From the IMG/VR virus record IMGVR_UViG_3300035670_000952, positions 1-30,313 of that record: a stretch of DNA of 30,313 bases, one strand, 5' to 3'. Position numbers and translations under genes: made by a program. This document shows, piece after piece, positions 2,576 to 28,826 of this stretch. Within the stretch, counting starts at the first letter, position 1. Every line of letters begins with the position of its first letter. The notes beneath the pieces were generated by a model. It did no database searches, had not been told where the DNA came from, and worked only from the letters and a program-made list of their open reading frames with translations. This DNA comes from a virus.

Positions 2576-2583
2576 ACTACTAT

Positions 2584-2589
2584 ATTATA
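2584..2589 (-). promoter_or_regulatory. -10 box (TATAAT) of the protease gene, leaderless
   Basis: TATAAT ends 8 nt upstream of the ATG at 2575, in a 60-base AT-rich gap after the portal gene. No Shine-Dalgarno fits between box and start. It lacks the TG extension seen at most other units. Confidence 0.55.
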
Positions 2590-2635
2590 TACTCTTTTTT
2601 TTCAATTATTTCAAAATTATAACATTATTTTAAAA

Positions 2636-4261
2636 TTACTGAGAGGAGCGTCCCTCGCCTTGAGCATTTCTACCATTTACAGTAGCTGTGCTGTCAGACT
2701 GGTTGTTTGCTCTTTCTGCATCTCTTGCACGTGTCTGTGCAGTATTTGCTGATGCATCTGCTGCTTGCCTAGATGACATCTCAAAGAACTCATCGCCCTC
2801 TGGGTGCATAGGCAATCCAAGCTCAGCTCGTGCCTCGTTTGGAATCATGATCTTGTTACGAACATAACGCTCTAGAATCTGAGACTGTGCAATCTCATCT
2901 GTAAGGGTAAGCTCGTTAAACTTTAGCTCAATAGCATCAGTCTTTTCACGAATGATCTTATTCAACATCTTCTCAAGATTACGCTGTGCAGGTCTAGCAA
3001 CCTGCTCCTTAAATGTACGGTCTTGTGCCAAAGCAGCTGCAATTGCTGCAGAGTCAGCACCACCAATCTTTGATAGCGGAACCTGGTGAGCAATCAGAAT
3101 ATCTTCTCTGTTACGAACACGATACTCATTGAACGATGCCTCCTGTACCCCATTCTCAATAGGCTTCATGTCAAACTCAACCTTATTGGTATCTGAGTCT
3201 CCTGGAAGAGGAATGTAAAGAGTTCTGTGGTTCTGCCCCTTAAGGCTTGTCTGTAGGAATCTAAACATCTTATCTTCTGCATCAGCAGATAGCTTTGCAC
3301 CCTTTAGAGTAACAATGTATCTTGGAGTTGCCTTGTTAGCAAAGTAATCAATGTTGTACTGATTAGCCAACTGGTCTCCATGCAACGCAGACAGTGCAGA
3401 GATAATGTCAGGCACTCCGTAGTAAGTGTTTAGAGGGGAGTACTCTTTGTAGTGAATAATCTCATTTGGACGTGGATCTCCAGTAATTGGATTAGGATTC
3501 TTTGCACCAAAGTTACGGAAATAAACAACCTTCTGTCCAATGATCTGTACATACCCATCCTTTAGTCTACGAACACGAACAGTAGTAGCAGGAATATGAC
3601 CAATGTATCCAATTTCACCCTTAACAGTTCTTCCAACTTCCAAAAATCCGTTACCAGTAGACTGTACGTCAGTAAAGAACTTCATCATTGTGTGAGTGAA
3701 TGAATCATCATCGTTTAGATTTTCTAGCCAGTCACGAAGCTCAATCTTTAATCTTTCAATTCTTAGTCGTGCACGATCTCTCTGTGCATCTTCCATATCA
3801 CTCTCAAGCTTTAGCTGGGTTCTGTCAGTTACCTTAAAATCATAACCAAGACCAACAATATTTTCTACTTTAGCGTCAATTGCTGCGTGGTTAGCAAAAG
3901 ATGTATCGTAGTAGCTTGCCAGCTCATAAAGATTCCATGGAGGAGTAATTACATCAAAGAGTCCGTAGCCATTTCTGTATACTGTTCCTGGATTGATCTG
4001 CTTTGTACCAGTACCATCACGACCTGCACTACGTGCGGATGCAGATGCAAGATATGGCTCTGAGTTAGTGTTTACCCCATTTGGGACAGCATTCTCATAT
4101 AGTGCCTTGGATACTCTATCTGATCTACGCTTAAAGTTTTTATCTAGATTGGCAAGGCCCTTAAGTTCATCCCAAGTCTTATTGAATGGATCTTGCTTTT
4201 TAAAAGTTTCGTCTGCTGCTGGTGACTCATCAACAGATACACCAAGAATGTATTCGCTCAT
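2636..4261 (-). CDS. Portal protein
   Basis: This 541-residue protein is the likely dodecameric portal through which DNA enters the head. The core (about residues 95-490) matches the HK97/PBSX-type phage portal family: a Trp/Tyr-rich entry segment (TPPWNLYELASYYDTS), ENIVGLGYDF, STGNGFLEVGRTVKG, IGHIPATTVRVRR, EIIHYKEYSPLNTYYGVPDI, ALHGDQLANQYNIDYFANKATPRYIV, and the wing/stem part with VPLSKIGGADSAAI. The C-terminal 50 residues are polar and probably disordered. The ATG overlaps the stop of the upstream gene by one base (TAATG), with GGAG about 10 nt before it, so the two genes are co-translated. It lies directly upstream of the protease, a standard head-gene order. Confidence 0.88.
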   Translation of the reverse strand: MSEYILGVSVDESPAADETFKKQDPFNKTWDELKGLANLDKNFKRRSDRVSKALYENAVPNGVNTNSEPYLASASARSAGRDGTGTKQINPGTVYRNGYGLFDVITPPWNLYELASYYDTSFANHAAIDAKVENIVGLGYDFKVTDRTQLKLESDMEDAQRDRARLRIERLKIELRDWLENLNDDDSFTHTMMKFFTDVQSTGNGFLEVGRTVKGEIGYIGHIPATTVRVRRLKDGYVQIIGQKVVYFRNFGAKNPNPITGDPRPNEIIHYKEYSPLNTYYGVPDIISALSALHGDQLANQYNIDYFANKATPRYIVTLKGAKLSADAEDKMFRFLQTSLKGQNHRTLYIPLPGDSDTNKVEFDMKPIENGVQEASFNEYRVRNREDILIAHQVPLSKIGGADSAAIAAALAQDRTFKEQVARPAQRNLEKMLNKIIREKTDAIELKFNELTLTDEIAQSQILERYVRNKIMIPNEARAELGLPMHPEGDEFFEMSSRQAADASANTAQTRARDAERANNQSDSTATVNGRNAQGEGRSSQ

Positions 4262-4629
4262 TAACCTTCATCTCCGTATAGCTTAAGTGTTTGTTGTGCT
4301 GCATGGACTGCACCAAGATCATTTAGGTTTGGAATAAGTCCGTTCTTCATACGGTCTACCTGCTCAGAATATTCTTCGTCTGAGATTCTTCCCATACCTG
4401 CAAAGAAGTATGGCTCTCCATCAGGCTCTCCATGATATGCAGCAGCTTCACGCAATTTTTGCAATTGCTTCTCATCACCCTTACGGGATGGAATATTTAG
4501 AATGTTTCCTTGACCATCAGTGAACCACTTTCCGTTTGACTTTTTCCAAACGTATACACCCCAGTCATAGGCCTTATCAACCAATGTAACTTTAGATTTT
4601 CCAAAAGCGTCAATAAATTTCTCATTCAT
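4261..4629 (-). CDS. Conserved-looking phage protein of unknown function, next to portal
   Basis: The gene encodes 122 residues from the ATG at 4629. It is soluble and mixed-charge, with DWGVYVWKKSNGKWFTDGQGN near the N-terminus and a helical C-terminal half. I do not recognise the family. Its stop overlaps the portal start (TAATG), which suggests a head-related role or at least co-expression. The frame is open to a GTG at 4635, but TGGTATACT sits at 4645-4637, leaving 7 nt to the ATG at 4629 and no Shine-Dalgarno. I therefore chose 4629 as a leaderless start. Confidence 0.6.
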   Translation of the reverse strand: MNEKFIDAFGKSKVTLVDKAYDWGVYVWKKSNGKWFTDGQGNILNIPSRKGDEKQLQKLREAAAYHGEPDGEPYFFAGMGRISDEEYSEQVDRMKNGLIPNLNDLGAVHAAQQTLKLYGDEG

Positions 4630-4636
4630 GACCACT

Positions 4637-4645
4637 AGTATACCA
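4637..4645 (-). promoter_or_regulatory. Extended -10 promoter (TGGTATACT), leaderless
   Basis: TGG-TATACT on the minus strand ends 7 nt before the ATG at 4629. A second TATAAT-like box lies just upstream, overlapping the end of the LamG gene. It would drive the unknown gene and the portal. Confidence 0.6.
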
Positions 4646-4647
4646 CA

Positions 4648-7600: not shown

Positions 7601-8199
7601 AAATATATGTCATATGTTTCTGGCAAAGTCTCTGCTGGTCTTGAAAGTGATGCCTCTGGCTGTTTAATTAAAACTTTAATGTATGGAAAGATTAGTTCTG
7701 CAGCATCTATTTCGCTAAGCAAAAAGGTATCTGAAAAGTAGGTCCATTGCTTACCGTCAGGGAATGAGTATGTTCTGATTCTTTCATATCCCTCTTGCGT
7801 CTGCGGATTGAATGCATAATATCCAATTGATAAAGACAAGACATCTGGAAAGTCGTTGTCAATATATGAGTGGATTCCAATAGTAAATGTTTCTTTTGAT
7901 GGGTCCATGCTGCTGACGTTGATTATCTCAGATGCTGCCACTGCATAAGACAAAAACGGCAACGTTAGTGGATCTGAGTATGGTGCTGAAACAAGATAAA
8001 CATCATCATCTATTGCTGGCTTATCTGGTGCAATAGATAGGGTTGGGCTAGACGCTGGAGTACTAGCAGACCATGTAGCTAAATCTGCATTTGTTTCAAG
8101 CACAAAAGAAATGTATTCAAGGTTATCATCTAATGCCCACAGGGAAATTGGATGCTCTGCAAAAACCTTTTCTGCATAGAGATTAGAGGGATTAGACAT
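4648..8199 (-). CDS. LamG/concanavalin-like giant minor tail protein
   Basis: At 1183 residues this is the largest gene of the window. It opens with NLYAEKVFAEHPISLWALD, a start I associate with LamG-type minor tail proteins of large actinophages. The protein is almost wholly beta-rich, with several jelly-roll-like stretches containing patterns such as YTLEMWLRIDSS, LLINSEEVIS, and near the C-terminus HEWNMIGIRFQNI followed by GGIRINGPILVNN, typical of LamG/ConA-like sandwiches. Such domains usually bind glycans, so a host-surface recognition role is likely but inferred. There is no signal peptide and no membrane segment. A TGCTAAAAT box ends 6 nt before the ATG, which implies a leaderless message. 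Confidence 0.7.
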   Translation of the reverse strand: MSNPSNLYAEKVFAEHPISLWALDDNLEYISFVLETNADLATWSASTPASSPTLSIAPDKPAIDDDVYLVSAPYSDPLTLPFLSYAVAASEIINVSSMDPSKETFTIGIHSYIDNDFPDVLSLSIGYYAFNPQTQEGYERIRTYSFPDGKQWTYFSDTFLLSEIDAAELIFPYIKVLIKQPEASLSRPAETLPETYDIYFSGLRVGQWAENFAFSTSGQFPSLSAANNVYGVGTNQLSIPAKEYGISGNNGYYLTKEYSLLCQNFGIPMVYGASNVTRLKPFEGYPSMIIPGDGFLNDSGRYNEYTLEMWLRIDSSAVGPRRIFGPVASDDGLYIDGPFIKLKIGSSVESHYAGELFRPMLIHIKLSETNASLLINSEEVISMSIAEDTSYPKISENGFQQDWLGFYAYDDVPLLEIDCVAIYPYLVPSLVAKRRFAYGQAVELPENINSAFSGTSAYVDYNFADYTNNYSYPDTGRWFQAATDNLDVAGYTLSTPKYNLPEIILESGSSEEWLAANSTVQSGDDLFLTFSENPGYLYFKNLRLLKEDTRAFYMIFEVPELPETKQILFSINDNANGNYFEAILEDYKVKYVLNYNGEDTLLYEQEDVVANMKSFVGIDIHALESYFGRNVSAFFGNKSRLSLYVASNKNFEYGLDAKIYSVNFCTSRSFNEISGLFQDPEIISTEFVANAGDSYFGTDPAFWFKTFDGGYVDSFGMLTADTFVASYSFRPKQYFGMFTVDVMTSSYWEDYIPLKHFSQYVKSSTGSYYDLDFIQFNIDYPNRHIESGNYFDTANEQVRTYITFQYLSDGANKPKAWFVNTEPAPVNNVITPGTNWITTRYEITDGMLIYMPLGVDLSEVALVTHIEVVSDGIKSSPISVKKLEYASQAYNPETSNPIGTRFGLPIYPYKRYGLYYDYKTKNPYRITKRPHPYLYLTSSSGIEKIGQNDLSIDRGFSIPMNQNLAESYRVVAMQFAMRYSGDTFGSRRQRIMDIESKSSLIRVYLENNDSSGKHARIYAVNAKTGQELTSTIFYINGNQTTSPVISVHEWNMIGIRFQNILDLDSYVGGIRINGPILVNNISYYQSTNLQELQRQELFSWFNIVNIDPLDPYWSTVLVKLPFWNNVLVKSTVNTYGVSPDDIYKAYIGTNKVIFDDGDGISLADYQYSVYSGITSSVSVYNPV

Positions 8200-8205
8200 G
8201 TAACT

Positions 8206-8214
8206 ATTTTAGCA
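8206..8214 (-). promoter_or_regulatory. Extended -10 promoter (TGCTAAAAT), leaderless
   Basis: The TAAAAT box ends 6 nt before the LamG ATG at 8199 and no Shine-Dalgarno is present. The TG extension is intact. Confidence 0.55.
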
Positions 8215-8226
8215 TAATAAAACTAA

Positions 8227-8505
8227 TTATTCTGCTGCTTCTGCTGGAGACCACTTGCCAATAGGACATTCTGCGTGTGGTAGCTGAGTCTTCATTTCCA
8301 TAAAGCAACCACATTTTCTGCACTGCTTACTTAGTTTAAACAAAAATTCGCAGCCGTTGCAAATCTCCATACGCTGTTTCTGAACATCTGATGAAACTCT
8401 GCCAATACTTGGATTAACCATGTCCCATGGTCTTGCTGGCTTATTCAGTGGCGGTATCTTGGGAAGGCTCTCCTTGTTGATTCTTATAGAATTGCCCTTC
8501 TTCAT
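8227..8505 (-). CDS. Small PWDxxNP Cys-cluster protein, copy 1
   Basis: This 92-residue protein has a PWDMVNP motif at 26-32, then Cys49-x2-Cys52, Cys62-x2-Cys65-x-Cys67 and Cys80, ending in CPIGKW. The pattern looks like a zinc ribbon or knuckle. Two paralogs occur in this window (20896-21141 and 27777-27986) with the same PWD motif, the same Cys spacing core (CGCF) and the same CPxxKW end. The function is unknown; I recall similar small proteins in large actinophage genomes. AGGAGA lies 5 nt before the ATG, and this start overlaps the end of the upstream gene by 65 nt in another frame, an unusually long overlap supported by the ribosome binding site. Confidence 0.75.
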   Translation of the reverse strand: MKKGNSIRINKESLPKIPPLNKPARPWDMVNPSIGRVSSDVQKQRMEICNGCEFLFKLSKQCRKCGCFMEMKTQLPHAECPIGKWSPAEAAE

Positions 8506-8878: not shown

Positions 8879-9564
8879 TAATCATACTTCTTTCTATGCC
8901 AATGGATTATTTTGTATGGAGTCTCTTCTTCTCTAACTATCTTAGATTTAATGTGGGCTTCATCATATAGTCCATTATCAATGATCATTTTCCAAGCTGC
9001 CCGTTTTATTGGTATTAGTTGAGCAATTGGAGTTCCTTTTTCTATAATACCATTAAAATCTTGTCTTATAAAAAATGGAATATTTCCAGATCCAGCAAAC
9101 TCATCAGAATCTATTATTGCTGATACAGTGTGAAATGGAAGCTCTACTCTATTAAATGGGTGAGTAAGCAAAATAGACCATCCCCTTGGGGCCTTAAATC
9201 CCCACCATCCAGAAAACACATTGTGTTGCTGTGCAAAACCAGTTGGTCTTGGCATGGTTTCTCCAAGCTCATTAGGACGAATACCAATAAACTTATGAGG
9301 AAACTCATTGGTGTCCCAAGTAAAAGTTTTACTTCCGTCAATGCCAGTTCCTACCTGAACGTCTACTGGAAACGTAAGCATGTACCCAGAAAGCATCGCA
9401 TCTGTATACGGCATACATTTTTTGAGTCCTGCTCCAGATGTGCCATCAGAAGAGTGAAACTCGCTTTCAGCATTTTTAAACCAATCTGGCAAAAGTCTTT
9501 TAGATGGACTGGGTATACCAAATTTCTCCATGGTTCTCATAGAGACAAATTTTAACAGCTTCAT
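8878..9564 (-). CDS. DUF6065-like conserved phage protein
   Basis: This 228-residue soluble protein has the features I associate with the DUF6065 family: an N-terminal PxPxxRLLPDWFK segment, KKCMPYTDAMLSGYMLTFPVDVQV, a Trp/Gly/Pro-rich centre (WGFKAPRGWSILLTHPFNR), IIDSDEF, PFFIRQDF, and KGTPIAQLIPIKR followed by WHRKKY. The layout looks like a compact beta-barrel or cupin-like fold, but no catalytic site is evident and the family role is not known to me. It is the first gene of a unit with TGGTATACT at 9597-9589 and a short leader with GGAAA before the ATG. The next gene starts on its stop codon. Confidence 0.6.
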   Translation of the reverse strand: MKLLKFVSMRTMEKFGIPSPSKRLLPDWFKNAESEFHSSDGTSGAGLKKCMPYTDAMLSGYMLTFPVDVQVGTGIDGSKTFTWDTNEFPHKFIGIRPNELGETMPRPTGFAQQHNVFSGWWGFKAPRGWSILLTHPFNRVELPFHTVSAIIDSDEFAGSGNIPFFIRQDFNGIIEKGTPIAQLIPIKRAAWKMIIDNGLYDEAHIKSKIVREEETPYKIIHWHRKKYD

Positions 9565-9588
9565 TCACATTTCCAATCTGGCATAACT

Positions 9589-9597
9589 AGTATACCA
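9589..9597 (-). promoter_or_regulatory. Extended -10 promoter (TGGTATACT)
   Basis: Lies 24 nt upstream of the ATG at 9564. Predicted transcription would start near 9582, giving a short leader with a GGAAA site. It drives the DUF6065-like gene and the two overlapping small genes after it. Confidence 0.6.
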
Positions 9598-9605
9598 GAT
9601 GGCTA

Positions 9606-10876: not shown

Positions 10877-10877
10877 A

Positions 10878-12575
10878 CTAAGCTAGGTCTCCCATCAGGT
10901 ACCAAATATCTGTATCTCTTTTAATTAGTGTTGCAGATGAAAACTGGGTTCTAGTGGTATTGCTTGGCGTATATCTTAATGTCATATATGCTGGCTCAGC
11001 AATATCAACAGTTACCTGACCAGTCCCTGCTTGCATAATTGTAATAGTGGTTCCTACTGGGAATGCTACTTGTGTTTCTGGTGGAATAGTAATTGTGACT
11101 GGAACATCAAGCAAAGACTCAATCATTTTGTCTTTGTCAGATAGCTGCAAAGTGTATGTTGTGTATTGTATTTGATTAAATGATACAAGGCTTGGTGCAA
11201 CATCGGTTGGGAATCTTGTTGTATACCATCCGTTAGCTGGACCAGCATAAAGAAGTGTGTCTCCTTCAAGTGCATCATCAAGATGAACATCTGTGAGCTG
11301 TGCCATTGATGATGCTGCAGATCCTGGTAGCCAGGTACCAGATGCTGCATCATATGCTAGAACATCAGTGTCTGATAGATCTGTAAGGTCAACATCTGTT
11401 AGCTCAGATAGGGCTGCTGCTGAAAGAACTGGAGTATATGTAAATACACCATCAGCATAAGATAGACCACCAGCCGTTGTTCCAGTAGCTGCTACTTCTA
11501 CGGTAAAATTTGGATTAGTTGGCTGTCCACCAAGAGCACCTGCAACTTCTTGTACCCACATCTGAACATCGTAGTTTTGACCAATGTAAGATGTTGCAGA
11601 AGCACCCTGCCCCTTGATACGATAAGCAATCACTGTTCCTGGCTCAAGATTATGCTCGTCATAAATTGTCCAGCTAAAGTCTTTTGTTGTAAGTAGGTCC
11701 CAGCTAAAAATTTCTGTTTCTACTGAGTCAACTACACGATATAGCTTTGCGGAAGCATAGCTGGCACACTGGTGATCTGCTGTTATGCTTACTAAATTTA
11801 CATAGCTTATTGTTGTAGTTAGAGAGACCTCAAGATTTTGTGATCCATCATTATAAATGTGAAGCCCACCAGTGCTAGCTGCGAATGGACCTGAAGCCTC
11901 TAGAATACCAAATGATCCTGCAGTTACCCCAGTGACAGCTGGGTTAAATGTAAAAACTCCAGACTCTGTGTCATAAGATAGCTGTCCACCATCTACAACT
12001 GTACTAGTGTTTACAGAAATTCCCTCAATACCTACAAGTGGCTTTGGCTTCCACATCTGTGTTGAAGAATCATAATACAACACTTCTTGATCAACAGCAG
12101 TTGATACCTGAACATCGGAAAGTTCTTCAAGTGTGTGGGTGTGTCCAATATCTGACTTGGTTCCAAGAGAAATTACAATGTCTTCAATATTTCCATCGTT
12201 TGCCTGGATTGCAGCAGCTATTTCATTAAGGGTATCTAGTGTGGTTGGTGCAGAATCTATTAAGTCTGCAATCTTAGCATTTGTATATTCCTGATACCCT
12301 TCAACAACTGACTGAATGCTGGCATTAATTGTAGTTACTGCATCTAAAAGCTCTTCATCAGTATATGTTTTTGATGCCGTTAGGGTAGCGAGTGTTGCTG
12401 CATCAATGTCTTCTGCATTCAAGAATGTTGGGAGATCTGACCAGGCTGTTACACCATCACCAACCTTAAAGGTTTGGTCATCTGTTGATATTGCAATTTC
12501 TCCAGCAGCAAGTACTGTATTTGCATCAGTCCACTGAGCTAGAGTTCCTCTTCGCTGCTGAAGTCTAATTAACAC
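10878..12575 (-). CDS. Tail fibre protein with RRGT N-terminus and shared C-terminal domain
   Basis: This is a 565-residue fibre. The N-terminus (RLQQRRGTLAQW, GEIAISTDDQTFKVGDG) is the attachment module found in many phage fibres (major-tropism-determinant/HylP-like). A coiled-coil-prone stretch with SAPTTLDTLNEIAAAI follows, then beta-rich repeats containing LSDVQV/LTDVDL/LTDVHL. The last ~100 residues (FPVGTTITIMQAGTGQVTVD to the end, W-x-L-x-GDLA) recur in 14337-15989 and 22664-23296 and are probably the distal trimer tip or receptor-binding module. The start is GTG with AGGAG 6 nt upstream. Two -10 boxes lie in front. Confidence 0.8.
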   Translation of the reverse strand: MLIRLQQRRGTLAQWTDANTVLAAGEIAISTDDQTFKVGDGVTAWSDLPTFLNAEDIDAATLATLTASKTYTDEELLDAVTTINASIQSVVEGYQEYTNAKIADLIDSAPTTLDTLNEIAAAIQANDGNIEDIVISLGTKSDIGHTHTLEELSDVQVSTAVDQEVLYYDSSTQMWKPKPLVGIEGISVNTSTVVDGGQLSYDTESGVFTFNPAVTGVTAGSFGILEASGPFAASTGGLHIYNDGSQNLEVSLTTTISYVNLVSITADHQCASYASAKLYRVVDSVETEIFSWDLLTTKDFSWTIYDEHNLEPGTVIAYRIKGQGASATSYIGQNYDVQMWVQEVAGALGGQPTNPNFTVEVAATGTTAGGLSYADGVFTYTPVLSAAALSELTDVDLTDLSDTDVLAYDAASGTWLPGSAASSMAQLTDVHLDDALEGDTLLYAGPANGWYTTRFPTDVAPSLVSFNQIQYTTYTLQLSDKDKMIESLLDVPVTITIPPETQVAFPVGTTITIMQAGTGQVTVDIAEPAYMTLRYTPSNTTRTQFSSATLIKRDTDIWYLMGDLA

Positions 12576-16526: not shown

Positions 16527-16535
16527 ATTATACCA
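16527..16535 (-). promoter_or_regulatory. Extended -10 promoter (TGGTATAAT)
   Basis: Overlaps the last codons of 16528-18090 and lies 22 nt before the ATG at 16504. It would give a short leader with an AGGAC site. Confidence 0.6.
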
Positions 16536-18569: not shown

Positions 18570-18575
18570 ATTATA
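18570..18575 (-). promoter_or_regulatory. -10 box (TATAAT), leaderless
   Basis: Ends 6 nt before the ATG at 18563. It lacks the TG extension, as at 2584-2589. Confidence 0.5.
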
Positions 18576-18594: not shown

Positions 18595-18816
18595 CTACAT
18601 TACGTAGTTGTTTAAACCAATGATAGCGATGCCAATGGGGGCAGCATTTCCTGGACCGTATGCCTGAATTCCAATATTTGTAAATCTAACACGAAATGGA
18701 AGAGTTTCGTTTATAAGAACTGTAGTTTTTGGTTGATAGGCAACTGTTCTATAATAATTCTTTTGCTCAACTAGCTTTGTCTTTGACGACTTGTCAGAGA
18801 TAATAGCGGTAGCCAT
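18595..18816 (-). CDS. Small conserved fibre-cluster protein
   Basis: This is a 73-residue protein. The second half (PFRVRFTNIGIQAYG then APIGIAIIGLNNYV) resembles a small protein that I recall beside fibre genes in other phages; I cannot name the family. It is beta-rich, with no Cys and no membrane segment. It starts on the stop codon of the upstream gene (TAATG), so it is translationally coupled to the RGDT-type protein. Confidence 0.55.
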   Translation of the reverse strand: MATAIISDKSSKTKLVEQKNYYRTVAYQPKTTVLINETLPFRVRFTNIGIQAYGPGNAAPIGIAIIGLNNYVM

Positions 18817-19190
18817 TAGTCAGTTACATCCTCAATGATGATCATGCTACCTTGAGCAACTGTCCAAACAGTGTCTCCAACATTTGCAGTTAACTGAATG
18901 TCAAACAGATCTCCAGTTTCTAAAACTTCTGATTCTGCTGATGCCAGCGATACTGTAAACTCTCCAACTGCATCATCTGCATCCTGGAAAGGAGACAGTG
19001 TCATGATTAGGGAATTATCCCTTTTAATGTCCATCTTAATTGACCAGTCTGCAATTGCTAGTGGAATTTTTGCATCATCTGCAACGTATACTCTAAATGC
19101 TGCTGTGTCTCCACGCACTACCGTCCAGGTTACCTGTGGTGGCTTGTTTCCTACTGCATATGAACTTGCTGATCCTCTAGTGGTTGCCAT
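18816..19190 (-). CDS. RGDT-type beta-domain virion protein, copy 1 (BppU-N-like)
   Basis: This 124-residue protein contains VTWTVVRGDTAAFRVYV, IADWSIKMDIKRD, GEFTVSLAS, FDIQLTANVGDTVWTVAQGSMIIIEDVTD. Two paralogs are present (24821-25198 and 26631-27017) with the same [RK]GDT-x-x-[FL]R[VI] start and the same DTVWT...G-x-[IS] end. The layout resembles the N-terminal domain of baseplate upper proteins (BppU-like), a fibre adaptor. The frame stays open upstream to 19454 and would add a false hydrophobic segment, but TGGTATACT ends 6 nt before the ATG at 19190. I therefore take 19190 as a leaderless start. Confidence 0.65.
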   Translation of the reverse strand: MATTRGSASSYAVGNKPPQVTWTVVRGDTAAFRVYVADDAKIPLAIADWSIKMDIKRDNSLIMTLSPFQDADDAVGEFTVSLASAESEVLETGDLFDIQLTANVGDTVWTVAQGSMIIIEDVTD

Positions 19191-19196
19191 GTTATT

Positions 19197-19205
19197 AGTA
19201 TACCA
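19197..19205 (-). promoter_or_regulatory. Extended -10 promoter (TGGTATACT), leaderless, divergent
   Basis: Ends 6 nt before the ATG at 19190. It faces away from the plus-strand promoter at 19236-19244, so the two form a divergent pair about 30 bases apart. Confidence 0.65.
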
Positions 19206-19244: not shown

Positions 19245-19260
19245 ATTAAGAACAAATGAC

Positions 19261-19290: not shown

Positions 19291-19302
19291 GGAGGCATAA
19301 AT

Positions 19303-19896: not shown

Positions 19897-20899
19897 CTGA
19901 GTTAATCCATTTGTAGGTTCTAAATAGACCTTCATTCAACGGAACCTTTGGCTCCCATCCAAGTACAACTTTTGCTAGACTGCTGTTAGAATTTCTATTT
20001 AGCACTCCGACTGGACCATCAACATATTCTTTTACTATATTCTTTCCAGATATCTTAATTATCTGATCCGCAAGAAAGTTGATTGATACAGAAAAATCTG
20101 ATCCAATATTAATGGGCCAATTAAAAGTAGATTCCATCAATAGCTGAACACCATCAATACAGTCATCAATATATAGGAATGACCTGGTCTGCTCTCCATT
20201 ACCAATTATTTGAATCGTATCTCTTTGAGATGACTTTGCAACTTTTCTACATAATGCTGCTGGAGCTTTTTCTTTGCCCCCGTAAAAGGTCCCCAGAGGA
20301 CCGTAGACGTTGTGAAAGCGTGCAATCCTTATCGGAATACCATAATTCTTTTCTGAGGCCATATAGAGCCTTTCAGCAAACAATTTTTCCCAACCATATT
20401 CTGAATCTGGATTTGCAGGGTATGCCATTGACTCAGAGTAGTTATAAGATTCTGAATCTTCTGGATATACACATGCACTGCTTGCATAAAATAGCACAGT
20501 TTTATTTTTATTAATTTTAAGATTTAATTCGTTCTGTGCCTTGACTAGATTTATGTTTATCAGGGCAGAGTTTGACATTATGTTGGCATCGTTATTTCCA
20601 GAAAAAACATATTCTGCTCCACCCATATCTGCTGCAAAATTATATATCTCATCAAAACTGTCATGAAACTTTTCAGCTATGCTTGAATAGAAGTTGCCAG
20701 CTGTTCCAGTAAATGCTACTACTCTTTTCATCAAAGAAAAATCTGTTAGATCTCCATAAACAAATTCATCTGCTTTTGACTTAGAGTATTTTGGCTCATG
20801 GATATCTACGCCACGAACCCAATACCCAAGATCTTTGAGTCTTGTAACCATGTGGTTTCCAATAAAGCCACCTGCACCTAGAACTAGAACATTTTTCAT
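19877..20899 (-). CDS. GDP-mannose 3,5-epimerase-like SDR
   Basis: The 340-residue protein is an extended short-chain dehydrogenase with the NAD motif GAGGFIG (8-14), NFAADMGGAEYV, ASSACVYPE, the Tyr168-x3-Lys172 pair (YGWEK), RFHNVYGPLGTFYGGKEKAPAA and TRSFLYIDDCIDGV. The SSACVYPE and GGKEKAPAA blocks are those of GDP-mannose 3,5-epimerase, and the Cys (143) and Lys (211) used there as acid/base pair are kept. It would convert GDP-mannose to GDP-L-galactose or L-gulose, perhaps for a glycan. I chose ATG 20899 (GTCAGGAC six bases upstream, ATGA overlap with the Cys-cluster gene) over 20917. It is a metabolic gene within a fibre cassette. Confidence 0.82.
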   Translation of the reverse strand: MKNVLVLGAGGFIGNHMVTRLKDLGYWVRGVDIHEPKYSKSKADEFVYGDLTDFSLMKRVVAFTGTAGNFYSSIAEKFHDSFDEIYNFAADMGGAEYVFSGNNDANIMSNSALININLVKAQNELNLKINKNKTVLFYASSACVYPEDSESYNYSESMAYPANPDSEYGWEKLFAERLYMASEKNYGIPIRIARFHNVYGPLGTFYGGKEKAPAALCRKVAKSSQRDTIQIIGNGEQTRSFLYIDDCIDGVQLLMESTFNWPINIGSDFSVSINFLADQIIKISGKNIVKEYVDGPVGVLNRNSNSSLAKVVLGWEPKVPLNEGLFRTYKWINSVIQEID

Positions 20900-21141
20900 T
20901 TTTTGTCCTGACCCCATTTATGTAGTGGACACTCTGCCAAAGCTAAAGTAACCTTTGCCTTCATAAAGCATCCACACTCACTGCATTGCTTTGTTGGCTT
21001 AATTAGTTTAGGACAAGCTTTACAAATATCATATCTTGCCTGAGCAACATCTTTGGTTACGTACTCAGTTTTGGGATTAATTAAATCCCAAGGTCTTGTC
21101 TCACCAAGCTTTTGTTTGTACTCTTCCCACTTGCTAGTCAT
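20896..21141 (-). CDS. Small PWDxxNP Cys-cluster protein, copy 2
   Basis: This is an 81-residue paralog of 8227-8505: PWDLINP at 17-23, Cys40-x2-Cys43, Cys53-x2-Cys56-x-Cys58 and Cys71 in CPLHKW. It is a probable zinc site of unknown function. It overlaps the upstream 'DG' gene by 8 nt and ends in an ATGA overlap with the epimerase gene, so three genes form one translationally coupled unit. The same partner order (DG-domain gene then PWD gene) occurs at 8227-8878. Confidence 0.75.
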   Translation of the reverse strand: MTSKWEEYKQKLGETRPWDLINPKTEYVTKDVAQARYDICKACPKLIKPTKQCSECGCFMKAKVTLALAECPLHKWGQDKK

Positions 21142-21373: not shown

Positions 21374-21396
21374 TGTTTGCCTCTCGTTATTTATAT

Positions 21397-21405
21397 ATTA
21401 TAACA
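21397..21405 (-). promoter_or_regulatory. Extended -10 promoter (TGTTATAAT)
   Basis: Lies 23 nt before the ATG at 21373, in a 36-base gap after the PASTA/Cys-repeat gene. It would drive the three-gene unit ending in the epimerase. Confidence 0.6.
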
Positions 21406-21409
21406 TGAG

Positions 21410-22660: not shown

Positions 22661-22663
22661 TTT

Positions 22664-23296: not shown

Positions 23297-24171
23297 TATG
23301 CGACCTCCCTAGCAATACCCTGAGTGATTAGATTTCCATCTAAAGTTACTGTAGCAGTTCCAAGATTAGCAAAAGTATATGTTATCAAAGATGCAGCAGA
23401 CTGTCCATGAGTATCAACAAATTTTATTGATCCCTCTGACCATGCACCAATTTGGGTAGTCGTACCAAGGTCTCCGTTGACTGTTCTAAAAATTCCAAAA
23501 GGTCCAGAAAAAATACCAGGCATTATAAACTCTACCTCAATCTTTGTACTTCCAGTGCTAACAATATTTACGGCAAATGGTGTTGGAGTAGCTCCATCAA
23601 GATATCCAAATACTGTTGTGTTTAAACCAATAGCAGCTGCAGTTACTGCATCGTATGCAATTATGTCTAATCCTGGAACACTAAAACTTGAATATGCTTT
23701 GGCTGCTACCCCACCTGCTGCAATCGAATCCCACGATGTGCCATTATAAACAAATAGCTCATTGCTGGCAGCATTTACCCAAAGCATACCGTCATTAAGA
23801 TTGTCTACAGGTTCAGTTGCACTATAAATAGCTGAAAGGCTGTCCTGATCAAATACTGCAGCTACACTGTTAGAATCTACCCATACAAGACCATCAATTG
23901 GTGCTACTGGTGCTGAATTAGTGAATACAGAACCAGCTCCAATCTGCTGCAAATCATAAATGTCAGATCTCATAGCCTTCAGGTATCCAGCTACTGACTC
24001 GTTAATAATCTGTGCTGCTGTCTGTGGTGCCGTTGCAGATCCATACATAAAAAGCTTGAGTGCTTCTTGGATATTTGAGTCATCTCCTAGAGATGGAATC
24101 TGAGTATTGTAAAGCGTTCCAGTAGCATCTGGATCATTTGGGTCCCAGTTAGCATTAATATTTTCTGCCAT
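23296..24171 (-). CDS. Fibre-cluster structural protein
   Basis: This is a 291-residue protein. Residues 1-50 (NANWDPNDPDATGTLYNTQIPS) look like an adaptor. Two copies of the 'P-x-D/N-G-[LM]-[VL]-W-V' motif follow (APIDGLVWVDS and LNDGMLWVNA with VYNGTSWDSI). The second half is beta-rich with alternating hydrophobics, ending at ITQGIAREVA. There is no catalytic motif. It is coupled by TAATG overlaps at both ends to 24171-24821 and 22664-23296, so this is a single co-translated fibre unit. Confidence 0.6.
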   Translation of the reverse strand: MAENINANWDPNDPDATGTLYNTQIPSLGDDSNIQEALKLFMYGSATAPQTAAQIINESVAGYLKAMRSDIYDLQQIGAGSVFTNSAPVAPIDGLVWVDSNSVAAVFDQDSLSAIYSATEPVDNLNDGMLWVNAASNELFVYNGTSWDSIAAGGVAAKAYSSFSVPGLDIIAYDAVTAAAIGLNTTVFGYLDGATPTPFAVNIVSTGSTKIEVEFIMPGIFSGPFGIFRTVNGDLGTTTQIGAWSEGSIKFVDTHGQSAASLITYTFANLGTATVTLDGNLITQGIAREVA

Positions 24172-24821
24172 TATGCTGCTGCACCTCCAACCGTAATTAG
24201 TAGGTGAATAAGGTATTGACCGTTAAGTGGCTGCCAAGCACCGTCAACATATTCTACTGCACTGCAGGAAATTGGTAGGTGTGGGGAGCCAAGAGGAATT
24301 TCAGCACCAGCGTAAGTCACTGTGCTTGTAATTTCAGAAACATTTATCGAGGATGATACAGGATTATCTGCTAGCAGCGAGTACTGAATATTAAAATCTA
24401 GGTATGTAAATTCTCCAAGGTCTTCAAGGCTGAAGAATGACGCTAGTGGGAATAGTGCATCTGGAACATATACCCCAGTAGCAATTTCAGTAACGGCTTG
24501 TCCGTTTACGAAAGTAACTGGTGGGTTGTAAAATGCTGTATTTGGTACTAGGCGAAGAACCTTTTGCCAAGTCTCTACTCCATTTACCAATACTCGCTGA
24601 TAAAGAAAAAGGTACTCGTTATCTGATGGCTTTAGATTGATATACAGATCATTAACTTGTTTGCTGGCATTAAATTCAACAGCTTGATCTGTTGGTTTTC
24701 CATCTCCAGTAAAGATGTAGCTACCACGAGTACCCTGTGGCCCCAAGTCAACAGATACATTTATTGATGCTGGACCACCTAAAACTGTTAGCTCGTCAGA
24801 AGAAAGGACGATATCTACCAC
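24171..24821 (-). CDS. Virion protein with a short GPQGTRG collagen-like stub
   Basis: This is a 216-residue protein. Near the N-terminus DLGPQGTRGSYIFTGDGKP has about three Gly-x-y triplets, a short motif also found in structural proteins of actinophages. The rest is beta-rich (LYINLKPSDNEYLFLYQRV, ETWQKVLRL, YVPDALFPLASFFSLED). It starts with GTG by TAGTG overlap on the upstream stop, with GGAG upstream. It is presumably an appendage subunit that pairs with the RGDT/KGDT-type protein encoded just before it. Confidence 0.6.
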   Translation of the reverse strand: MVDIVLSSDELTVLGGPASINVSVDLGPQGTRGSYIFTGDGKPTDQAVEFNASKQVNDLYINLKPSDNEYLFLYQRVLVNGVETWQKVLRLVPNTAFYNPPVTFVNGQAVTEIATGVYVPDALFPLASFFSLEDLGEFTYLDFNIQYSLLADNPVSSSINVSEITSTVTYAGAEIPLGSPHLPISCSAVEYVDGAWQPLNGQYLIHLLITVGGAAA

Positions 24822-25198
24822 TATGCTGCTCCTGTTACCTGATCCCTTACTGAAATAGTTCCAGTTAGGAGAGTGTATGTGTAATCTTTGCTATCGCTAC
24901 CAACCTTGCTAATCTCAACGTCATAAACGTAAGAGATTGTTGCGTCTAGCTGGTTACCGTGTGCAGGGAAGATTCCACAAGAAATATAGGTTCTGTCTAG
25001 TGCAATTTCTGCAAATGCTTCAATTTGACTTGCAAGACCTTCAGAGCCTCTTGACTCTGCGATTGTAAACTTCACACCGTTTTCAAGATCATACCCATCT
25101 AGTGGAAATACTGCACCAGAAGAATCTTTGGGGTAAATACGAAACTCTAGGGTATCACCCTTGTAATAGTTAATATTGTAAGTTCCTGGAAATGCCAT
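24821..25198 (-). CDS. KGDT-type beta-domain virion protein, copy 2 (BppU-N-like)
   Basis: This 125-residue protein has NINYYKGDTLEFRIYPKD, LDGYDLENGVKFTIAESR, ISCGIFPAHG, YVYDVEISKVGSDSKDYTYTLLTGTISVRDQVTGAA. It has the same core as 18816-19190 and 26631-27017 with a Lys in place of Arg in the GDT motif. It is a likely adaptor domain. A TGCTATAAT box ends 7 nt before the ATG, so it is probably leaderless. Confidence 0.65.
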   Translation of the reverse strand: MAFPGTYNINYYKGDTLEFRIYPKDSSGAVFPLDGYDLENGVKFTIAESRGSEGLASQIEAFAEIALDRTYISCGIFPAHGNQLDATISYVYDVEISKVGSDSKDYTYTLLTGTISVRDQVTGAA

Positions 25199-25205
25199 AG
25201 CTATT

Positions 25206-25214
25206 ATTATAGCA
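25206..25214 (-). promoter_or_regulatory. Extended -10 promoter (TGCTATAAT), leaderless
   Basis: Ends 7 nt before the ATG at 25198, in the 18-base gap after the collagen-like gene. No Shine-Dalgarno is present. Confidence 0.6.
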
Positions 25215-25216
25215 TG

Positions 25217-25945
25217 TTAAAATACAGAAACATGGATACTTTGTAGAGACACAACGCATGGGTTATCAGTTCTAATCATTGGCATGATACCAGATATTTT
25301 GTCAACTTCGTTCTCAAGTGTTAGGTTGTGTGTTTCTGAAAACTCGTATACGTGTGGATATTTTAGGATAGCTGAGAACTTTGTTAAATCCTTCTTGCTG
25401 CCAGGGAAAAATGACCTTGTCCAAACCTCAGTATTTGCATCAAATGAATTAATTACAAATGTGTATGTTATGGATATTTGAGATCCAATCTTTAGTGATT
25501 TTAGGTTGATTACTCTTGCACTATCTAGGTATAGCGATACACCATCTTTTGGCAAAAACTCTTTTGCTACTTTTGAGTTTCCAGTCTTAAAAGAAAACCT
25601 TACCCAGCCATCGTCACCCTTATCTGCACCAGTTCTAATTAGGTCATCTTCTTTTTTCTCATAACGACCCCACCCTGGTTGCTGACCATATGGAGATAGG
25701 TAGCTTATTCCATCTACACCGTCTTTGCCAGGCTTACCTGCATCACCCTTTGGCCCCTTTGCTCCCTGCTCACCCTTTGGACCTTCTGGACCACGCTCTC
25801 CCCTTGGTCCTTGATCTCCCTTTGGTCCTGGTACAGGAATATAGCTTGCAGAAGTAGTTTCGTGAATTGGTAAAGAAGACTTAGCCACTAGCTCTGAATA
25901 TTTCACGCTTTTAGATGATGGGAAATCCATTTCCTTTGAGACCAT
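25217..25945 (-). CDS. Collagen-like fibre protein
   Basis: This is a 242-residue protein. After a 39-residue start come 13 Gly-x-y triplets (about residues 40-78), rich in GPK, GPR and GPE, forming a short collagen triple helix. Pro is mostly in x, Lys and Arg in y. Residues 80-242 are a beta-rich C-terminal head with WVRFSFKTG, GVSLYLDS, SQISITYTFVIN and IHVSV. Such proteins form trimeric phage fibres. GATAAT with a TG extension ends 6 nt before the ATG. The Lys in y positions are possible hydroxylation sites for the oxygenase (speculative). Confidence 0.8.
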   Translation of the reverse strand: MVSKEMDFPSSKSVKYSELVAKSSLPIHETTSASYIPVPGPKGDQGPRGERGPEGPKGEQGAKGPKGDAGKPGKDGVDGISYLSPYGQQPGWGRYEKKEDDLIRTGADKGDDGWVRFSFKTGNSKVAKEFLPKDGVSLYLDSARVINLKSLKIGSQISITYTFVINSFDANTEVWTRSFFPGSKKDLTKFSAILKYPHVYEFSETHNLTLENEVDKISGIMPMIRTDNPCVVSLQSIHVSVF

Positions 25946-25951
25946 ATATCT

Positions 25952-25960
25952 ATTATCTCA
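25952..25960 (-). promoter_or_regulatory. Extended -10 promoter (TGAGATAAT), leaderless
   Basis: Ends 6 nt before the ATG at 25945. The hexamer GATAAT is one base off consensus. Confidence 0.45.
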
Positions 25961-25965
25961 GACTA

Positions 25966-26631
25966 TTAGGGATTGTCGAAATAGGTTCCGTGTAGTGAGA
26001 AGTGATCTACTGTCTGTAGAGTTCTTGGAGATCCTTGTTCAAATGATATTAGCGTGCCGTTGCTTCCTGTATAGTATAGTAATACTCTTTGTTCTCCAGC
26101 TTCGCAAATTCCAGTCATTGTATAATAGACATTTGAAGATACATCGTGCAATACCCCATTGAAGGTTGTATCAATTTTTGTTGGGTAAGGTAGGTCTAGG
26201 TAATACTGTCCAGAACCAAAATTGGTAATGTTTGACATATCAACATTAATCTCAACATGCGTTAGCACACCAACTCTCATAACAGTTCCAAAGAAAAGTG
26301 GATCGCCGTTAAAGGTTGGCTGAGTACCAAGGGCACCGCCACTTACAGTAAATTCCATTAGCTCTGGATCTTGAGCACGAGTTGTTAACCAGTCATACGA
26401 AGTCATACCTGCTTCTGTTGCTACAACATTAACGAGATTTAGGTAATCAAACCACTCTTGTTCTGTTCCAGTGTAGCCATTTTCTACTGCAAGGTCATAG
26501 CTAGATGCTCCAGTAGGACCCTGTGGACCCATAGGACCAGTTAGACCTTGTTCTCCCTGAATACCCTGTAAACCTCTTGGACCTTGTGGCCCTACCGCTC
26601 CTGGAAACGGTACAATCTTAATTGTTGGCAT
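25966..26631 (-). CDS. Collagen-like fibre protein with beta-rich head
   Basis: This is a 221-residue protein. About ten Gly-x-y triplets lie at residues 11-41 (GPQGPRGLQGIQGEQ and on), close to the N-terminus. Then DLAVENGYTGTEQEWFDYLN (a helix seen in phage collagen-like fibres) and a beta-rich head with VMRVGVLTHVEINVDM and YYTMTGICEAGEQRVLLYY. It starts by TAATG overlap on the RGDT-type gene with GGAGG 9 nt upstream, so the two are made together. Confidence 0.75.
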   Translation of the reverse strand: MPTIKIVPFPGAVGPQGPRGLQGIQGEQGLTGPMGPQGPTGASSYDLAVENGYTGTEQEWFDYLNLVNVVATEAGMTSYDWLTTRAQDPELMEFTVSGGALGTQPTFNGDPLFFGTVMRVGVLTHVEINVDMSNITNFGSGQYYLDLPYPTKIDTTFNGVLHDVSSNVYYTMTGICEAGEQRVLLYYTGSNGTLISFEQGSPRTLQTVDHFSLHGTYFDNP

Positions 26632-27017
26632 TATAAACTACCTCCTGTAACGTCCCCAAGTACTGAGATAGTTCCAATTACGGGAGTCCATACGGTATCG
26701 CCGTCAATAGTTACTTGGAGATCAAAAGCCAATTCTGCTACTGTCTTGTTGTAACCAGTACCCCACAGTGCAGTAATTTCTGGGGAAGCTGTAATTTCAA
26801 CATAACCATCCCCTACTACAACATCTAGCTCATCAATAACGTCACCTTTAAAATCATAAGCAGACGCAGCATATTCCCAGCCAGTAGTGTCATATGATGT
26901 AGCTTCATCATTTTGATAGAATTCAACACGAAGTGGAGAGGTATCACCTCTAACAATTGTCCACTTTATGATAGCTGGATTAGCCCCAAGGACTTCAGGA
27001 GAGCAGGGAGATGTCAT
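26631..27017 (-). CDS. RGDT-type beta-domain virion protein, copy 3 (BppU-N-like)
   Basis: This 128-residue protein has IKWTIVRGDTSPLRVEF, TTGWEYAASAYDFKG, AFDLQVTIDGDTVWTPVIGTISVLGDVT. It is closest in pattern to 18816-19190. The frame is open to 27053, but TGTTATAAT (27035-27027) lies inside that extension and ends 9 nt before the ATG at 27017. The shorter form, leaderless or nearly so, is therefore preferred. It is the first gene of the fibre cassette after the terminator. Confidence 0.65.
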   Translation of the reverse strand: MTSPCSPEVLGANPAIIKWTIVRGDTSPLRVEFYQNDEATSYDTTGWEYAASAYDFKGDVIDELDVVVGDGYVEITASPEITALWGTGYNKTVAELAFDLQVTIDGDTVWTPVIGTISVLGDVTGGSL

Positions 27018-27026
27018 AGTACCTAT

Positions 27027-27035
27027 ATTATAACA
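27027..27035 (-). promoter_or_regulatory. Extended -10 promoter (TGTTATAAT)
   Basis: Lies just downstream (in the minus sense) of the big terminator at 27051-27113. It would start the fibre cassette with little or no leader. Confidence 0.6.
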
Positions 27036-27050
27036 CCTTAAAAGAAATAT

Positions 27051-27113
27051 CAAGAAAAAAATAACTGATACCTAGGTAGTGGGTATGAGAGACATCCCTA
27101 GATATCAGTTATT
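27051..27113 (-). terminator. Long stem terminator, 17 pairs, possibly bidirectional
   Basis: Arms at 27060-27076 and 27097-27113 pair with a single mismatch (AATAACTGATA and CTAGG blocks). On the minus strand a run of T (27059-27055) follows. It separates the holin unit from the fibre cassette. On the plus strand the flank is TTATTATTTATT, so it may also stop antisense reading. Confidence 0.85.
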
Positions 27114-27183
27114 ATTTATTATAACACATCAAAGAATAAGAACTTTATAACTTTGTAATAAAAGAGTTATAAAAGAGTTATCG

Positions 27184-27207
27184 AAAAAAGCTTGATTTTG
27201 GATCAAG
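27184..27207 (-). terminator. Intrinsic terminator after the holin gene
   Basis: A stem of CTTGAT/ATCAAG with a five-base loop is followed by C and six T on the minus strand. It lies about 90 bases past the holin stop. Confidence 0.75.
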
Positions 27208-27294
27208 ATGTGCTACGATTATTATTATTAATTATTAATTATATCTTTAAGTTAAATATATTATATATTTATATATATTTATATATTATATATA
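27208..27294. other. Extremely AT-rich tract
   Basis: From about 27220 on this is almost wholly A and T (ATT, TATATT and TTATATA runs) with several imperfect inverted repeats. No gene is seen. It could be an easily melted element or just a spacer. The part at 27114-27183 holds a GTTAT pair 11 bp apart (27166, 27177). Confidence 0.5.
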
Positions 27295-27594
27295 TTAATC
27301 TTTCTTATTTGCAATATATGATATAAATTTGTCATATAGGTCATCAATTTGCCTATCTAATTTTTCAACTCTTGCGTATGTTTCTTTTCTTAGTGTATCT
27401 GCTTTATCCAAGCGATTTTCCAGACGATTAACCTGATCCTTTATACTTCCTCCGCCGTTTGGCTTAAGCTCATGCTTAATTTCTTCCAGGTAATGTTTAA
27501 CCATCCATCTGATCGCTACCCCAAGCATCGTTAGTAGTGTACCGATTCCAACCAGGATTCCTATTGATACATTGATGACATCTATGGGGTTCAT
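27295..27594 (-). CDS. Holin-like membrane protein
   Basis: This is a 99-residue protein from ATG 27594. Residues 4-29 form one transmembrane helix (DVINVSIGILVGIGTLLTMLG). Then come HELKPNGGGSIKDQVNRLE and a heptad-rich coiled coil to the Lys-rich end. An N-terminal membrane segment followed by a P-N-G-G-x-S-[IL]-[KR]-D motif and a coiled coil is typical of putative holins in actinobacteriophages. It would make the pore that times lysis. A TATAAT box ends 9 nt before the ATG. The frame extends to 27741 through low-complexity AT-rich sequence, which I reject as coding. It has no lysin directly next to it. Confidence 0.7.
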   Translation of the reverse strand: MNPIDVINVSIGILVGIGTLLTMLGVAIRWMVKHYLEEIKHELKPNGGGSIKDQVNRLENRLDKADTLRKETYARVEKLDRQIDDLYDKFISYIANKKD

Positions 27595-27603
27595 AACAAT
27601 ACA

Positions 27604-27609
27604 ATTATA
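27604..27609 (-). promoter_or_regulatory. -10 box (TATAAT) of the holin gene
   Basis: Ends 9 nt before the ATG at 27594. No Shine-Dalgarno fits, so the message may be leaderless. Confidence 0.45.
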
Positions 27610-27640
27610 AATGATTTTATGAATTATAAGCTCGCCGTGT

Positions 27641-27741
27641 AAGTTCGCTGACAAAAAGTTCGCACGATAGAGATCCCTTCTGCCACAAAAGTTATACAAA
27701 TATAACAAATATATAACATATATATAACAAATATATAACAA
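27641..27741. repeat. Divergent control region with 11-bp-phased iteron-like repeats
   Basis: Four copies of TATAAC-type units end in C at 27706, 27717, 27728 and 27739, exactly 11 bp apart, with a degenerate fifth at 27697. Just left is a direct repeat AAGTTCGC at 27641 and 27656. The region separates the minus-strand holin from the plus-strand right arm, so it may be an operator or an origin. Confidence 0.6.
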
Positions 27742-27761
27742 CGACTTGGCAGGGGTATTGA

Positions 27762-27770
27762 TGATATACT
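27762..27770 (+). promoter_or_regulatory. Extended -10 promoter (TGATATACT), leaderless
   Basis: Ends 6 nt before the ATG at 27777. It directly follows the phased repeats and starts the plus-strand right arm. Confidence 0.55.
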
Positions 27771-27776
27771 ATAATA

Positions 27777-27986
27777 ATGGAAGAAGAAGAGAGAGACGTA
27801 AAGCCCTGGGATTTAATTAATCCTAAGCAGCCTAGAAGTGAGCAAGAGCTTGTTGAGTATAGAATGAGCATTTGCAGAGCTTGTGAGCACTTTATCCAAA
27901 GATCGCAAAGGTGTGGACAATGCGGATGTTTTATGTCTCTTAAAACTACTTTGAAACAAGCAAAATGTCCAGTTAGGAAATGGTAA
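27777..27986 (+). CDS. Small PWDxxNP Cys-cluster protein, copy 3
   Basis: This is a 69-residue paralog of 8227-8505 and 20896-21141: PWDLINP at 10-16, Cys33-x2-Cys36, Cys46-x2-Cys49-x-Cys51 and Cys64 in CPVRKW, which is the C-terminus. It is the only copy on the plus strand and the only one without the DG-type partner beside it. It has a leaderless start, and its stop overlaps the next ATG (TAATG). It is a probable zinc site of unknown function. Confidence 0.75.
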   Translation: MEEEERDVKPWDLINPKQPRSEQELVEYRMSICRACEHFIQRSQRCGQCGCFMSLKTTLKQAKCPVRKW

Positions 27987-28177
27987 TGACAAAAGACGAA
28001 ATCATCGCAGTTATGACAGACACGATCAATAAGATGAACAGAGAACAGGCTTGGCAGAATGGTGTACCATCAGACCAGGTTGAACAGGTTATTTCTCAGA
28101 TGCAGCCTGAGTTGAATCGTGTTAATGGAATTGTCTATGACAAACTTGCAGAACTTGGCCTCTGGACCACCGTATAG
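27986..28177 (+). CDS. Small helical protein of unknown function
   Basis: This is a 63-residue, Gln/Asn/Met-rich protein, mostly alpha-helical by composition (IIAVMTDTINKMNREQAW; VEQVISQMQPELNRV). I do not recognise it. The TAATG overlap with the Cys-cluster gene and AGGAA upstream decide for ATG 27986 over an in-frame ATG at 27980. Confidence 0.6.
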   Translation: MTKDEIIAVMTDTINKMNREQAWQNGVPSDQVEQVISQMQPELNRVNGIVYDKLAELGLWTTV

Positions 28178-28664
28178 CCCTTGTCTTTGGTGTCCTACCA
28201 AACAAAATTTTAAAAAACAGCATTCTTACGGACTTGAGAACGGTAAATCTGCACTTAATAAACTAATAAAGCAAGATAAGACGAGATCATCCTTAAAAAG
28301 ATATGCCTCTTTGCCTGATAGCAAGTTATTCCTATACAAAGATCAAGACATCACAGTAACTCGTGATATAGAAGTTCCAGTTGGATTTCACATTGTTGTA
28401 TGGTTTAATGTATGTGGTTACTTTAACGTATCAGAGATACATCGTGATTTTCCTGACTTGTATAACAAGGTATATTCGTTTATCTGTAATGACTTGAAAA
28501 GTGCACTTAAATTGCCTGAGATCAAGATATGGTCATCAGAAAGAGAGATTGTTAATCATTTTGATAATTATCATGCACACTTTCAAGTAGCACCAGGAGA
28601 CAAGACTCATGTACCCCAGGATTTATACGAAATTACCAAATTGACTTTTAAGAAGTTTAACTAG
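28137..28664 (+). CDS. Unknown protein, about 175 residues
   Basis: The product has a short Cys pair (PCLWCP, residues 16-19), a Lys-rich stretch, then a beta/alpha part with ITVTRDIEVPVGFHIVVWFNV and YNKVYSFICNDLKSALKLPEI, and HFDNYHAHFQVAPGDKTHVP near the end. No family is recognised. The start is uncertain: ATG 28137 (weak GGA upstream) overlaps the previous gene by 41 nt; ATG 28119 is an alternative, and TTG codons follow. The gene ends against the convergent small gene at 28661. Confidence 0.6.
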   Translation: MTNLQNLASGPPYSPCLWCPTKQNFKKQHSYGLENGKSALNKLIKQDKTRSSLKRYASLPDSKLFLYKDQDITVTRDIEVPVGFHIVVWFNVCGYFNVSEIHRDFPDLYNKVYSFICNDLKSALKLPEIKIWSSEREIVNHFDNYHAHFQVAPGDKTHVPQDLYEITKLTFKKFN

Positions 28665-28813
28665 TTCTTACCGCACTTGCAGTTTTCACACTTGCATGTT
28701 GGATTGCTTTTTGACACTGTCTTCCTCCAATTCTGAAAAAATTGATTATTGTGGGTTAAGCACTTCTTGCAAAATTGATCAAGAAATAGTTGTAATGCCC
28801 ATTGACTTCCCAT
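28661..28813 (-). CDS. Small Cys-rich protein, leaderless
   Basis: This is a 50-residue protein: FCKKCLTHN (CxxC) near the middle and CKCENCKCGKN at the C-terminus, with a Trp/Gln/Phe-rich helix between. Six cysteines suggest metal binding. TATAAT ends 7 nt before the ATG at 28813, matching the leaderless pattern of the other minus-strand genes. It overlaps the end of the plus-strand gene 28137-28664 by 4 bases. The function is unknown. Confidence 0.6.
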   Translation of the reverse strand: MGSQWALQLFLDQFCKKCLTHNNQFFQNWRKTVSKSNPTCKCENCKCGKN

Positions 28814-28820
28814 AGGTTCT

Positions 28821-28826
28821 ATTATA
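28821..28826 (-). promoter_or_regulatory. -10 box (TATAAT), leaderless
   Basis: Ends 7 nt before the ATG at 28813. Its context GTATATAAT is the same as at 2584-2589. Confidence 0.5.

Follow-up and report, generated by a model that had tools for sequence, protein, structure and literature searches.

Extended −10 boxes close to gene starts point to leaderless mRNAs in an environmental phage and its relatives

In the DNA of an environmental virus (IMG/VR record IMGVR_UViG_3300035670_000952, positions 1–30,313; this whole stretch is referred to as the window), eleven start codons had been proposed in an initial annotation to stand directly behind extended −10 promoters set for leaderless mRNAs. 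The question raised by this locus is whether these boxes are promoters at all and, if so, whether translation begins at the very 5′ end of the transcripts. Judged from sequence comparison, it is very probable that transcription by a host SigA-type RNA polymerase begins at the AUG of such genes or within ∼3 nt of it, yielding leaderless mRNAs in an actinobacterial host, and that this is an old trait of the clade.

The window (30,313 bases, GC content ∼41%) is virion-arm DNA of a large tailed phage. Its minus strand carries the tail-fibre genes, followed by a phrog_9394-family gene, the portal, the head maturation protease and the capsid gene. The head order of pre-portal gene, portal, protease and capsid is common to the window and to the phages BillNye, Faust, Daubenski and Blueeyedbeauty, which carry one additional gene between portal and protease. 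A WhiB protein is encoded by a 113 kb relative, and the portal shares 44–47% identity along its length with the portals of the Streptomyces phages BillNye, Faust and Daubenski (Stanwilliamsviridae); for these two reasons the host is likely to be an actinobacterium. The epimerase gene, used as a further host clue, gave a mixed set of four matches, none of them decisive; the best (53% identical) is in a metagenome-assembled genome labelled Bifidobacterium. The comparison set consisted of 80 fetched environmental (IMG/VR) relatives, and in the portal tree the environmental phages stand apart on a long branch, with the window being a 30 kb fragment only. The Stanwilliamsviridae isolates grow on Streptomyces; the phage Trina is a Rhodococcus phage.

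Every start in the window was read, and a TANNNT hexamer was found to end 6–9 nucleotides (nt) before the ATG at ten of the eleven proposed starts. On the minus strand, the head maturation protease (phrog_9427, ATG 2575) has TATAAT at 2584–2589 with a gap of 8 nt and no TGn in the window; the small pre-portal gene (phrog_9394, ATG 4629) has the extended box TGGTATACT at 4637–4645 (7 nt); the gene for a 1183-residue protein (ATG 8199) has TGCTAAAAT at 8206–8214 (6 nt); that for a 148-residue protein with a weak baseplate-connector match (ATG 18563) has TATAAT at 18570–18575 (6 nt); a phrog_1084 protein (ATG 19190) has TGGTATACT at 19197–19205 (6 nt); and a second phrog_1084 protein (ATG 25198), which heads a coupled five-gene run, has TGCTATAAT at 25206–25214 (7 nt). 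Further along the same strand, a 128-residue protein (ATG 27017) follows TGTTATAAT at 27027–27035 (9 nt), a 99-residue protein (ATG 27594) follows TATAAT at 27604–27609 (9 nt) and a 50-residue open reading frame (ORF; ATG 28813) follows TATAAT at 28821–28826 (7 nt). On the plus strand, TGATATACT at 27762–27770 lies 6 nt before ATG 27777 of a 69-residue phrog_13558 protein. The eleventh start (ATG 25945, minus strand), which belongs to a collagen-repeat fibre protein, is a weaker case: its box, TGA-GATAAT at 25952–25960, has a gap of 6 nt and departs from TANNNT. A TGn in front of the box, proposed for most of the starts, occurs at six of the ten TANNNT starts and also at 25945. Beyond the TATAAT and TATACT forms named for the extended boxes, TGCTAAAAT occurs at 8199.

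Shine–Dalgarno (SD) pairing is weak (free energy dG above −5) at ten of the eleven starts. The exception is 27017, where dG is −6.5, without an AGGAG core. The strong sites ascribed to coupled downstream genes were recovered, their pairing and that of the capsid gene being mostly −6 to −16; the capsid start itself has AGGAGGTGA (1196–1212, minus strand; dG −15.9). A TANNNT box at 6–9 nt was present at 9/11 SD-less starts vs 1/29 SD-bearing starts (Fisher p = 1.9e-6), and the two SD-less starts without it are 25945 and 27980, an overlapping gene that is probably coupled. Leadered promoters are about equally numerous in the window, with leaders of 22–40 nt that mostly contain an SD; one of the same kind, TGGTATAAT at 16527–16535 (minus strand), lies 22 nt before ATG 16504 and is followed by AGGAG.

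The 60 nt upstream of 40 window starts were compared with 1000 dinucleotide shuffles, a strong box being defined as TATAAT, TATACT or TAAAAT. Strong boxes at 6–9 nt occurred at ten of the 40 starts against 0.67 in shuffled sequence, and TGnTANNNT occurred six times against 0.31; neither count was reached in any shuffle (0/1000).

Alignment of the boxes gave a logo with T at −15 (0.57), G at −14 (0.62) and TATAAT, and with no information at −30 to −40; the logo was alike for leaderless-type and leadered starts. A scan for sigma-70 −35/−10 pairs gave no excess over shuffles, consistent with promoters that have no −35 element, and the boxes thus have the character expected of extended −10 promoters of that kind. 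Spacing was examined for 143 nonredundant strong extended boxes. The distance to a frame-opening ATG was bimodal, with 59 boxes at 6–9 nt, three at 10–12 nt and 48 at 13–30 nt, and an SD motif accompanied 0/59 of the first group and 42/48 of the last. The cluster at 6–9 nt, the trough at 10–12 nt and the appearance of an SD once room allows are the informative part of this evidence. If the last T of the box is taken as −7, a 6 nt gap would make the A of the ATG position +1, and gaps of 7–9 nt would leave a leader of 1–3 nt.

These distances bear on the possibility that the boxes are internal promoters, that translation mainly uses longer read-through mRNAs (by coupling or by SD-less 70S scanning) and that the proximity to the ATG merely reflects tight intergenic space. 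Intergenic gaps are indeed short, and read-through is likely because few terminator-like hairpins lie between genes. Tight packing does not account for the trough and for the gain of an SD at longer spacers, and several boxes lie in gaps of 27–60 nt or more and are still 6–9 nt from the ATG; we consider this explanation very unlikely. The same scarcity of hairpins bears on the proposal that the structural arm is split into many short units. Only one hairpin of the virion arm makes a convincing terminator candidate (10–46, minus strand; 16 pairs with a T-rich tail), and it immediately follows the capsid gene. Nested promoters with read-through therefore fit equally well, and the proposal is unsupported.

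The arrangement is conserved among the environmental relatives, down to ∼51% protein identity. Leaderless-type starts were found for the protease in 74/74, with TATAAT 8–10 nt before the ATG, and for the phrog_9394 gene in 78/78, with TGGTATACT or TGGTATAAT 6–7 nt before the ATG, whereas the capsid start has an SD in 61/61. In the nonredundant sets the box is fixed against a mean upstream consensus frequency of 0.59 (protease) and 0.52 (phrog_9394), with the caveat that the hexamer was a selection criterion; TGG, which was not, is invariant before the phrog_9394 box in all 23 nonredundant sequences. At the phrog_9394 promoter (4629–4645 in the window, and in the relatives) conservation extends past the −10 box into the discriminator, TGGTATACTnnTGGTT-ATG; this exceeds what a promoter should need and is possibly a regulator site.

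Orthologs of the 1183-residue protein gene are leaderless-type in 19 cases and SD-led in ten, the latter with the same promoter at a longer spacer; one ortholog (L069), scored as ‘other’, carries AAGGGGAG and was hence counted as SD-led. The portal tree, a quick tree, requires at least four changes of initiation mode at this gene, three of them forced by strongly supported branches.

In the cultured phages BillNye, Faust, Blueeyedbeauty, Daubenski and Trina the protease and phrog_9394 (pre-portal) starts carry boxes too, and strong or near-consensus boxes were also found at the annotated starts of the positional counterpart of the 1183-residue protein gene, of a head–tail connector gene and of a minor tail gene, the connector gene of Trina being the exception. 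The number of boxes at annotated starts was reached in 0/200 shuffles for BillNye, Faust, Trina and Blueeyedbeauty and in 2/200 for Daubenski. At annotated starts of T4, Vibrio phage Gary and phiC31 there was no box excess over shuffles. Taken together, the conserved orthologous starts in relatives and isolates and the promoter-type logo bear out the central proposal of extended −10 promoters set for leaderless mRNAs.

The annotated starts also bear on whether the promoters are real but the box-adjacent ATG is idle, with translation from in-frame SD-led codons downstream on mRNAs with short leaders. This is plausible at 28813, a doubtful start with an in-frame GTG downstream preceded by TTGGAGGA, and some annotators did pick a downstream codon: gene 24 of Blueeyedbeauty (L085, NC_048720.1), in the position of the 1183-residue protein, is annotated from TTG 11510, whereas the conserved ATG of leaderless type, preceded by GATATACT, stands 42 nt before it, at 11468. 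The orthologous protease and phrog_9394 proteins, however, align from their first residue at the box-adjacent ATGs, and independent annotators picked the same ATGs in most isolates; as a general account downstream initiation is therefore very improbable.

Several results weigh against leaderless expression or lessen its support. The counts of 74/74 and 78/78 overstate independence because many relatives are near-copies; the nonredundant upstream sequences number 16 for the protease and 23 for phrog_9394. At a spacing of 6–9 nt the box leaves no room for an SD, which in part explains why none is seen. A spacing-only test on Trina that did not use annotated starts showed no excess; scans of this type over all ORFs are noisy, and in Vibrio phage Gary they gave a twofold excess that vanished with annotated starts. 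A portal scan of GTDB genomes for the host found no relative. Finally, the comparison with shuffled sequence that had been suggested for the motif came out marginal for bare TANNNT at 6–9 nt (ten vs 5.6 expected; 44/1000 shuffles) and decisive for the fuller motif. The bare hexamer is thus barely informative alone, a point in favour of chance TA-rich hexamers in AT-rich DNA. Chance was nevertheless rejected as extremely unlikely on the strength of the strong and extended boxes, of their clade-wide conservation and of the AT-rich controls T4 and Vibrio phage Gary, which remained at chance at annotated starts.

Leaderless expression would proceed as follows. Host primary (SigA-type) RNA polymerase would recognize the extended −10 boxes without a −35 element, although a phage-encoded factor may do so instead of the host sigma factor. 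The first transcribed base would be the A of the ATG or a base no more than ∼3 nt ahead of it, and the mRNA would enter the leaderless route, readily used by actinobacterial ribosomes, through 70S-type recognition of its 5′-terminal AUG, with later genes on the same mRNA using their own SD sites or coupling. The leaderless starts would be ancient in the clade of large actinophages that comprises the Stanwilliamsviridae, the Rhodococcus phage Trina and many environmental relatives. A more doubtful extension is that these starts act as a control device: because an SD-less gene would be poorly translated from read-through mRNA, synthesis of the protease and of the pre-portal protein would depend on the promoter of each gene and would stay below that of the capsid protein, whose near-perfect SD is found a short way downstream on the same mRNA. 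If this were true, the pair of leaderless protease and SD-led capsid would set the stoichiometry of head assembly across the clade.

Other features of the window were recorded. Each of the two phrog_1084 genes (18816–19190 and 24821–25198, minus strand) has its own leaderless-type extended −10 box, which suggests that the module was copied together with its promoter; the 128-residue protein (26631–27017) resembles phrog_1084 proteins by eye. Three paralogous small Cys-rich phrog_13558 proteins are encoded at 8227–8505 (minus), 20896–21141 (minus) and 27777–27986 (plus); one of the three has a start of leaderless type. At 9564–9583 (minus strand) TGGTATACT is followed after 4 nt by an ATG that opens a seven-codon frame, MPDWKCE; its stop codon and the ATG of a 228-residue protein gene overlap. 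This is possibly a leaderless leader peptide, or simply a short leader. A very AT-rich tract with TATATA repeats (27240–27310) separates two tail-region genes. The right arm (29040–30313, plus strand) is a run of small genes, each with a GAAAGGATAAA-type SD and with repeated upstream elements, TTGACA and TCAGACCCCTATGCTAGATT-like, and therefore appears to have leadered expression, unlike the virion arm.

The view that dense leaderless use is unusual for virion genes is weakened by the similar number of leadered promoters in the window and by further comparisons. Leaderless-type starts are not confined to head or other virion genes, being counted at 25/152 genes of the 113 kb relative and 12/56 of a 60 kb relative with a heuristic method for calling genes and starts that itself favours boxes. 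Their share in the window is 25% vs ∼6–11% in the annotated isolates (shuffle-tested box count). Shares of 16–25% resemble the 20–33% measured in actinobacterial genomes, which comprise 20% in Corynebacterium diphtheriae and ∼33% in C. glutamicum (PMC5784534); 20–25% is given for mycobacteria and Streptomyces.

Leaderless expression would be extended from scattered actinophage predictions to a conserved feature of head-assembly genes across a broad clade, and it is directly testable in the cultured members, whose hosts are laboratory Streptomyces and Rhodococcus. For annotation, gene callers that seek an SD can misplace leaderless starts; Blueeyedbeauty gene 24 is an example. The gene for the 1183-residue protein keeps its promoter while passing between leaderless-type and SD-led starts and offers a natural experiment in the switching of initiation modes.

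Among known systems, the leaderless cI mRNA of phage lambda, made from PRM, is the classic phage example; unlike the genes described here, it encodes a repressor and acts in Escherichia coli, where leaderless translation is rare. Leaderless initiation in lambda is cited in PMC3160421 and PMC9031893. The closest cellular counterpart is the established class of TA-led (leaderless) actinobacterial genes, marked by a TANNNT hexamer ∼12 bp ahead of the start codon (Zheng et al., 2011; PMC3160421). The present starts share with it a TANNNT/TATAAT box whose first T lies ∼12 bp before the start codon, the missing SD and orthologs that switch between SD-led and leaderless forms; they differ in belonging to phage genes, in their clear TGn extension without a −35 signal and in a more TATAAT-like box, as expected at lower GC content. 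Searches of open-access literature for leaderless late phage genes or Stanwilliamsviridae promoters gave no paper on the present clade. Leaderless transcripts of other actinophages are the predicted one from promoter P90 of Adephagia gene 90 (PMC11373665) and the mapped one of the corynephage gene DIP0180 (PMC5784534), but these concern single genes and not capsid-assembly genes. Cluster O mycobacteriophages have predicted leaderless promoters PL1, PR2 and PL2, one of them in the structural operon (PMC4351075), so that leaderless actinophage transcripts had been predicted before; those are three promoters in one small cluster, whereas here many starts are conserved across a broad clade and were tested against shuffles and controls, and the comparative support is unusually strong.

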